DNA from: a virus
Reading direction: 5' to 3' (one strand)
Length of the DNA stretch: 20,368 nucleotides
Virus record (IMG/VR): IMGVR_UViG_3300041403_001028
Coordinates: 1 to 20,368 of that record
This document shows, in pieces, positions 2,778 to 3,295 of the stretch. Numbering within the stretch: the first letter of the stretch is position 1; every line of letters starts with the position of its first letter. The position numbers and the translations under genes were made by a program. The notes under the pieces are model-generated. The model saw nothing but the letters and a program-made list of their open reading frames with translations, was not told where the DNA came from and made no database searches.

Positions 2778-2796
2778 AATACTAAGAGGTCTTAGT
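2769..2796. repeat. Two overlapping inverted repeats across the -10 and start region
   Basis: TAGTAT-ATTA-ATACTA (2769-2784) is a dyad with 6-bp arms over the -10 box, and ACTAAGA-GG-TCTTAGT (2781-2796) is a dyad with 7-bp arms over the predicted transcription start. Either could be an operator for a repressor. The second also overlaps the first half of the riboswitch-like leader, so the two readings compete. Confidence 0.4.
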
Positions 2797-2842
2797 GTTC
2801 GTTCCCTCTATAAACATTCCGCACACTCCACTAGCCAAGGAG
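2785..2842 (+). promoter_or_regulatory. preQ1-I-riboswitch-like leader before the queD-like gene
   Basis: AGAGG (2785-2789) can pair with CCUCU (2805-2809), enclosing a 15-nt loop that begins UCUUAG and followed by AUAAAC. The class I preQ1 aptamer has AGAGG, a loop starting UUCUAGC, CCCUCU and then AUAAA with CUAA, so stem and flank match closely. The loop segment UUAGUG (2792-2797) can pair with CACUAG (2829-2834, one U-G pair), giving an H-type pseudoknot ending just before the AAGGAG ribosome site (2837-2842). Differences from the known class: U instead of the specificity C after UAG, a longer loop, and the pseudoknot partner about 20 nt rather than 6-7 nt downstream. Position (promoter, leader, queD) is what a queuosine-precursor sensor would have. 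Confidence 0.4.
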
Positions 2843-2848
2843 TATAAA

Positions 2849-3295
2849 ATGAGTTATTATAGTACAAAAACATATGGACATAACATCGGACTAAGTGCCT
2901 GCTTTAGACAACCTAAAGCACACAGTCATTGCAGATTCCTGCACGGATATAGTTTGCAATTCCGTTTTACATTTGCAGCAGATGAACTTGATGAAAAGAA
3001 CTGGGTTGTTGACTTCGGCGGACTAAAACCGTTGAAAGCATGGCTTGAAGATAGCTTTGATCATAAAATTGTTCTTGATGCAGATGATCCGCATATGGAA
3101 ACTTTTAAAGATTTAGAAGAAAAAGGTCTTGCTGAACTTACAATCTTAGATGGTGTAGGTGTAGAACGTTTTGCTTATCATGCATGGAAACAAGCAAATG
3201 AACTTGTAAGCGAAATGACAGGCGGACGTTGTCGTTGTGTAGAAGTAGAGTGTGCAGAACACGGAGCAAATTCAGCAATTTATAAAGATGCCTAA
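2849..3295 (+). CDS. queD: QueD-like 6-carboxytetrahydropterin synthase / PTPS family, variant metal site
   Basis: This 148-residue protein matches the 6-pyruvoyl-tetrahydropterin synthase/QueD fold, which converts dihydroneopterin triphosphate to 6-carboxytetrahydropterin on the way to preQ0 and queuosine. Family features visible: Cys28-x3-His32-Gly (catalytic Cys and one Zn ligand), WVVDFGGLK (52-60), FDHK with Asp71-His72, and the terminal Glu137...Tyr145. Compared with E. coli QueD, two of three Zn histidines are replaced (Phe19 and Tyr34), while His25 and His27 lie close by and could substitute. This LSACFRQ...HGYS form resembles an alphaproteobacterial subfamily, so it may be functional but with a different site. 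ATG 2849 is chosen because AAGGAG lies six bases before it; a GTG at 2795 in frame would translate the leader. It heads the cassette up to 6006. Confidence 0.8.
   Translation: MSYYSTKTYGHNIGLSACFRQPKAHSHCRFLHGYSLQFRFTFAADELDEKNWVVDFGGLKPLKAWLEDSFDHKIVLDADDPHMETFKDLEEKGLAELTILDGVGVERFAYHAWKQANELVSEMTGGRCRCVEVECAEHGANSAIYKDA

Follow-up and report, generated by a model that had tools for sequence, protein, structure and literature searches.

A conserved pseudoknotted leader of queD-like genes in uncultured phages, a candidate translational riboswitch related in form to preQ1-I

The leader that precedes the queD-like gene in the analyzed virus record (a stretch of 20,368 bases, hereafter the window) is probably a riboswitch, whose aptamer would be an H-type pseudoknot recognizing a guanine-faced compound of the queuosine/7-deazaguanine pathway and regulating the translation of queD. 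The structure of this RNA, its conservation and its association with QueD are established by comparison of homologous leaders; ligand binding, the identity of the ligand and the direction of control are what we infer. The best reading of these sequences is that of a candidate translational riboswitch, new and phage-borne, akin to preQ1-I in its form and endowed with a different pseudoknot.

The window also encodes a tail-fibre-like protein, UvdE, an Fe-S assembly protein and a glycosyltransferase. Its queD-like gene (2849-3295, on the + strand like all features given below) specifies a member of the 6-carboxytetrahydropterin synthase (PTPS) family, matching Pfam PF01242 (E = 7.4e-19) and the QueD-like PHROG 2389 (E = 9.6e-45). 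A 77-nt gap, occupied by the leader, separates the ATG at 2849 from the preceding gene (2208-2771). The promoter (2749-2777), which has 11 of the 12 consensus bases, consists of a -35 box TTGACA (2749-2754), a 17-nt spacer and a -10 box TATATT (2772-2777). Since it ends 7 nt upstream of the AGAGG that begins at 2785, the RNA would start at about this AGAGG. Thus, two elements of the original prediction were borne out: a riboswitch-like RNA between promoter and queD, which is found as a structured leader in the 77-nt gap, and an RNA start near AGAGG, which agrees with the position of the promoter. Homologous leaders show the same arrangement, with 11 or 12 of the 12 promoter bases in 42 of 71 distinct upstream regions (2 of 1420 in shuffles) and a -10 box located mostly 5-15 nt upstream of the first stem (P1), so that the RNA usually begins with P1. 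An in-frame GTG could lengthen the window's queD in the 5′ direction across the leader (2795-2848); the ATG at 2849 and its ribosome site are common to the homologues.

At this predicted start, the 5′ strand of P1 (AGAGG, 2785-2789) pairs with CCUCU (2805-2809), as had been proposed, and this stem is conserved and covaries among homologous leaders (AGAGG/CCUCU, AGUGG/CCACU, AGACG/CGUCU). Loop L1 (UCUUA, 2790-2794) leads to the 5′ strand of P2 (2795-2801), which comprises GUGU, an unpaired U2799 and C2800-G2801. A cytosine at 2804 directly precedes the 3′ strand of P1, which is followed by loop L3 (AUAAACAUUC, 2810-2819); this loop begins with the AUAAAC noticed initially and is nearly invariant in alignment A2 (48 sequences; consensus NUAAAYAYUC). 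The 3′ strand of P2 (2820-2826) consists of C2820-G2821, paired with G2801 and C2800, of C2822 opposite U2799, and of ACAC (2823-2826), paired with GUGU. The conserved H-type pseudoknot indicated by the comparison is therefore GUGU-U-CG (2795-2801) with CG-C-ACAC (2820-2826).

In alignment A2, 91.4% of the P1 and corrected P2 pairs are standard, and their covariation reaches 0.497, compared to 0.140 ± 0.016 for shuffles and at most 0.123 for slid controls. The variable part of P2 comprises four to five pairs (GACAC/GUGUC, GACUU/AAGUC, GGCAU/AUGCC, GUGU/ACAC), after which come a conserved U.C mismatch, a C-G pair and an R-Y pair. Among the 144 unique sequences, this last pair is GC in 58, AU in 85 and something else in one, its partners switching jointly in 143 of 144; the search patterns had set these positions to R and Y and left the pairing between them free. 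The G-C pair at the top of P1, which would form the floor of the pocket, is present in 143 of 144 unique sequences, and the second base of L1 and the pocket base (C2804 in the window) are C in all 144. L1 varies from 3 to 9 nt. A subtype with a short L3 follows the same plan, with a P1 of 3-4 bp, a shorter L3 and a fourth P2 pair that alternates between G-C and A-U. It could be objected that so short a segment might form a hairpin by chance, or that only the promoter and the ribosome site are conserved and the RNA has no function. This explanation is refuted by the covariation, and the length-variable loops and invariant unpaired bases also speak against it; we give it a negligible probability.

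The first base of L1 is A or U: the window and one large subtype carry U (U6), another subtype A (A6). The base preceding the invariant C follows it, being mostly A in leaders with A6 and either U or C in those with U6; this link is partly an effect of the search, since pattern 1 imposed A with A, while the U6 scan and the queD-based loci left the base free. This non-standard covariation (positions 2790 and 2803 in the window), found across all leaders, is unusual and lies beside the presumed pocket.

The same comparisons bear on the version of the structure proposed initially, a variant preQ1-I aptamer in which U occupies the specificity site and UUAGUG forms a pseudoknot with CACUAG. The six pairs can indeed be drawn in the window. 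However, among 25 relatives from the same subfamily, which share the same P2, all six are found in the window alone; 102 of 150 pairs are possible over these relatives, compared to a mean of 102.1 with shuffled tails, and 585 of 1000 shuffles do as well. Furthermore, the specificity base had been mis-assigned. In preQ1-I, it is the C adjoining the 3′ strand of P1 on its 5′ side (PMC11625349), and its equivalent in the window is therefore C2804, retained as C in the 144 unique homologues. The C-to-U change on which the argument for a new ligand was based is thus absent. What persists of the likeness to preQ1-I is P1, the AUAAA flank, the pocket cytosine and an H-type pseudoknot; the pseudoknot as first drawn and the C-to-U change do not persist, and this version, refuted by the relatives, is now very improbable.

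The RNA is closely tied to QueD, although queD played no part in the DNA patterns. The downstream ORF encodes QueD in all 156 readable cases among the loci collected before the short-L3 and U6 scans, in 105 of 105 cases for the short-L3 subtype and in 113 of 119 among the U6-subtype matches listed. Among the U6 exceptions, L356, L393 and L404 show truncated QueD starts and L417 is broken off by the end of the contig. In L396 (8825-9602), a normal QueD start (MAKFISTKTYRQIGPVAYRQWRAD) is followed by unrelated sequence that breaks in, perhaps an intron or an inserted gene. L411 (2408-2449; 31.5 bits) is the sole copy of the motif without a clear QueD next to it; the next gene encodes a 302-aa protein with a weak resemblance to PTPS (residues 35-74, E = 0.078). 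In L164 (931-1200), the motif is separated from an intact QueD frame by a small ORF of about 55 codons. Conversely, among 76 QueD loci with a readable upstream region, 36 are devoid of the motif (a count corrected for five loci missed by the script, which carry the motif according to the covariance model), and their queD overlaps the preceding gene or lies within 25 nt of it. Therefore, queD has no leader of its own in the phages lacking the motif.

This exclusive location raises the main alternative, namely that the pseudoknot of the queD mRNA is an autogenous translational operator recognized by a phage protein, either QueD itself or another. Autogenous control of mRNAs is found in some T4-like phages. 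The 25 long contigs with a covariance-model match at E < 0.01 carry exactly one match each, which suits either interpretation, and this single strong motif is found at queD and never at folE or queE, even when these genes are present elsewhere in the same phage. FolE is encoded by 10 of the 28 motif-bearing contigs, QueE is found near queD in some and QueC is rare (these contigs being incomplete, an absence carries little weight). The occurrence of FolE and QueE in part of these phages speaks for the riboswitch. Against an operator, the RNA core remains constant while the QueD proteins diverge widely (the weakest regular member has an E-value of 2e-12 to the window protein), and many of the conserved bases are unpaired and positioned as in preQ1-I. 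In addition, QueD catalyzes the first committed step of the pathway, and a metabolite sensor located at queD alone is therefore reasonable. Overall, we consider the operator rather unlikely and retain the riboswitch as the preferred interpretation.

The motif is widespread in viral sequences. At least 344 viral contigs match three mutually exclusive DNA patterns: the core-RNA pattern, which makes no reference to queD, matches at least 120 of them, the short-L3 pattern 105 and the U6 pattern at least 119. False matches of loose regular expressions (L083, L103 + and L156 +) were removed by hand. Using the window QueD as query, 80 viral loci were kept, about half of which have a similar leader. 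The core-RNA pattern gave no match in 85k prokaryote species genomes. A relaxed pattern gave 20 matches in 85k bacterial and archaeal genomes, only two of which are real; both adjoin QueD in one Rickettsiales metagenome-assembled genome (MAG) and have phage-like neighbour genes, and they apparently correspond to phage contigs within this MAG. The two contigs concerned (L211 and L218 of MED657) share one phage-like region together with its motif, which suggests a duplicated or mis-binned phage contig. Model R1 did not detect the motif in eight whole genomes of cultured phages carrying queD. In two cultured phages, ACP17 and X1, whose QueD proteins are 72% and 64% identical to that of contig L128, the queD leader is short or absent. 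A blastn search of 50,697 phage records with two leader variants returned chance matches to the ribosome-site end only.

Under the riboswitch interpretation, the queD mRNA would begin with the leader, folded into an H-type pseudoknot aptamer. A small molecule of the queuosine/7-deazaguanine pathway with a guanine-like Watson-Crick face would be seated between P1 and P2 and paired with C2804, by analogy with preQ1-I; this ligand is probably preQ1, preQ0 or another guanine-faced compound of the pathway. Its binding would stabilize P2 and alter the access of the ribosome to queD, formation of the pseudoknot favouring translation (ON switch). In the window, RNA folding points to a possible expression platform (2825-2843), in which ACUCC (2825-2829) forms a 5-bp helix with GGAGU (2839-2843) at the ribosome site, A2825-C2826 being shared with the 3′ strand of P2. 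In another subfamily (L158, L161, L103), the 3′ strand of P2, extended by AUC, base-pairs with the region of the start codon. Since this strand overlaps a helix hiding the ribosome site or the start codon in the window and in several subfamilies, the pseudoknot would favour translation. Cognate pairing is modestly better than swapped pairing (mean of -6.39 versus -5.78; 679 of 20,000 permutations as good), and the CCGUU subfamily showed nothing of the kind. When P2 is held, the ribosome site is freed in 57 of 72 leaders (0.32 to 0.76); this is taken as weak support because spacer-shuffled controls rise similarly (0.36 to 0.67). The overlap expected of an ON switch is thus clear in some subfamilies only, and the proposed direction of control is conditional on it. 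In one subfamily (L103, L124, L137, L161 and many of L337-L455), a conserved stretch, AUCAAACUU[A/G]CU ... GGAG[G/A]C[A/U]AGAGAUG, is found 3′ of P2; it could represent a hairpin or another regulatory element.

If a metabolite of the pathway is bound, hundreds of uncultured phages would own a sensor for the supply of modified guanine. Phage 7-deazaguanines can shield phage DNA from restriction (PMC6884629), and the switch could tie this protection to the level of the metabolite. Furthermore, the natural A/U variation at the edge of the pocket would provide ready variants with which to study the encoding of ligand choice in a very small aptamer.

The closest known system is preQ1-I (RF00522, types I-III), in which an H-type pseudoknot likewise opens the mRNAs of queuosine genes. 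Both RNAs have a P1 closed by G-C, a C directly 5′ of the 3′ strand of P1, AUAAA 3′ of P1 and C as the second base of L1, and the window shares the U at the first. However, P2 is longer here (6-7 pairs with a U.C mismatch), L3 has the consensus NUAAAYAYUC, many members have A as the first base of L1, and L1 spans 3-9 nt. In translational preQ1-I members, an A-rich L3 is followed by a short P2 containing the Shine-Dalgarno sequence, whereas this sequence (2838-2843 in the window) lies outside P2 here. Moreover, the present motif is found in phage contigs and is absent from bacterial genomes proper. The Rfam check suggested at the outset gave the window leader 10.4 bits with RF00522, compared to a curated cut-off of 39, and RF00522 matched the motif in none of 28 related contigs; on score alone, the leader cannot be filed as a member of preQ1-I.

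A more specific reading overlaps with the preferred one. It is quite possible that these leaders form a fourth, very divergent type of preQ1-I that binds preQ1 in the known alpha mode, a reading that differs from the preferred one in ligand and membership. The AGAGG or AGUGG of P1, the C before its 3′ strand, the AUAAA flank and the H-type pseudoknot argue for it, as do the G-C floor pair and the two L1 bases (U then C in the window), which recall the preQ1-I pocket (PMC11625349); the low RF00522 score, the A found in many members at the first L1 position, the longer, mismatched P2 and the Shine-Dalgarno sequence outside P2 argue against it. More tentatively, the leaders might constitute a separate, phage-only class sensing a pathway compound other than preQ1 (such as preQ0, or the substrate or product of QueD), with two natural pocket forms, in which the invariant C is preceded by A (A6) or by U or C (U6), and turning queD translation on.

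Other known RNAs are more distant. preQ1-II (RF01054) and preQ1-III (RF02680) are also queuosine-related and pseudoknotted but adopt larger HLout folds (PMC11625349), and cmscan found no match to either in the window or in representative members. No Rfam family reached its gathering score in the window and members; the weak matches to Mu-gpT-DE, ES036, freshwater-2 and rli53 were judged to be due to chance. The literature searched, which did not include the 224 RNA motifs listed in 2017, contained no description of the motif; RNA motifs of this kind usually enter Rfam. The manA and wcaG motifs of T4-like cyanophages are phage-borne candidate cis-regulatory RNAs known mostly from metagenomes (PMC2864571). 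They are associated with other genes than here, and the present leader does not match them in Rfam. Finally, T4-type autogenous operators, such as that of gene 32, also place a pseudoknot in the leader of the controlled gene, where it is bound by a protein. In the leaders described here, by contrast, many of the conserved unpaired bases recall an aptamer.
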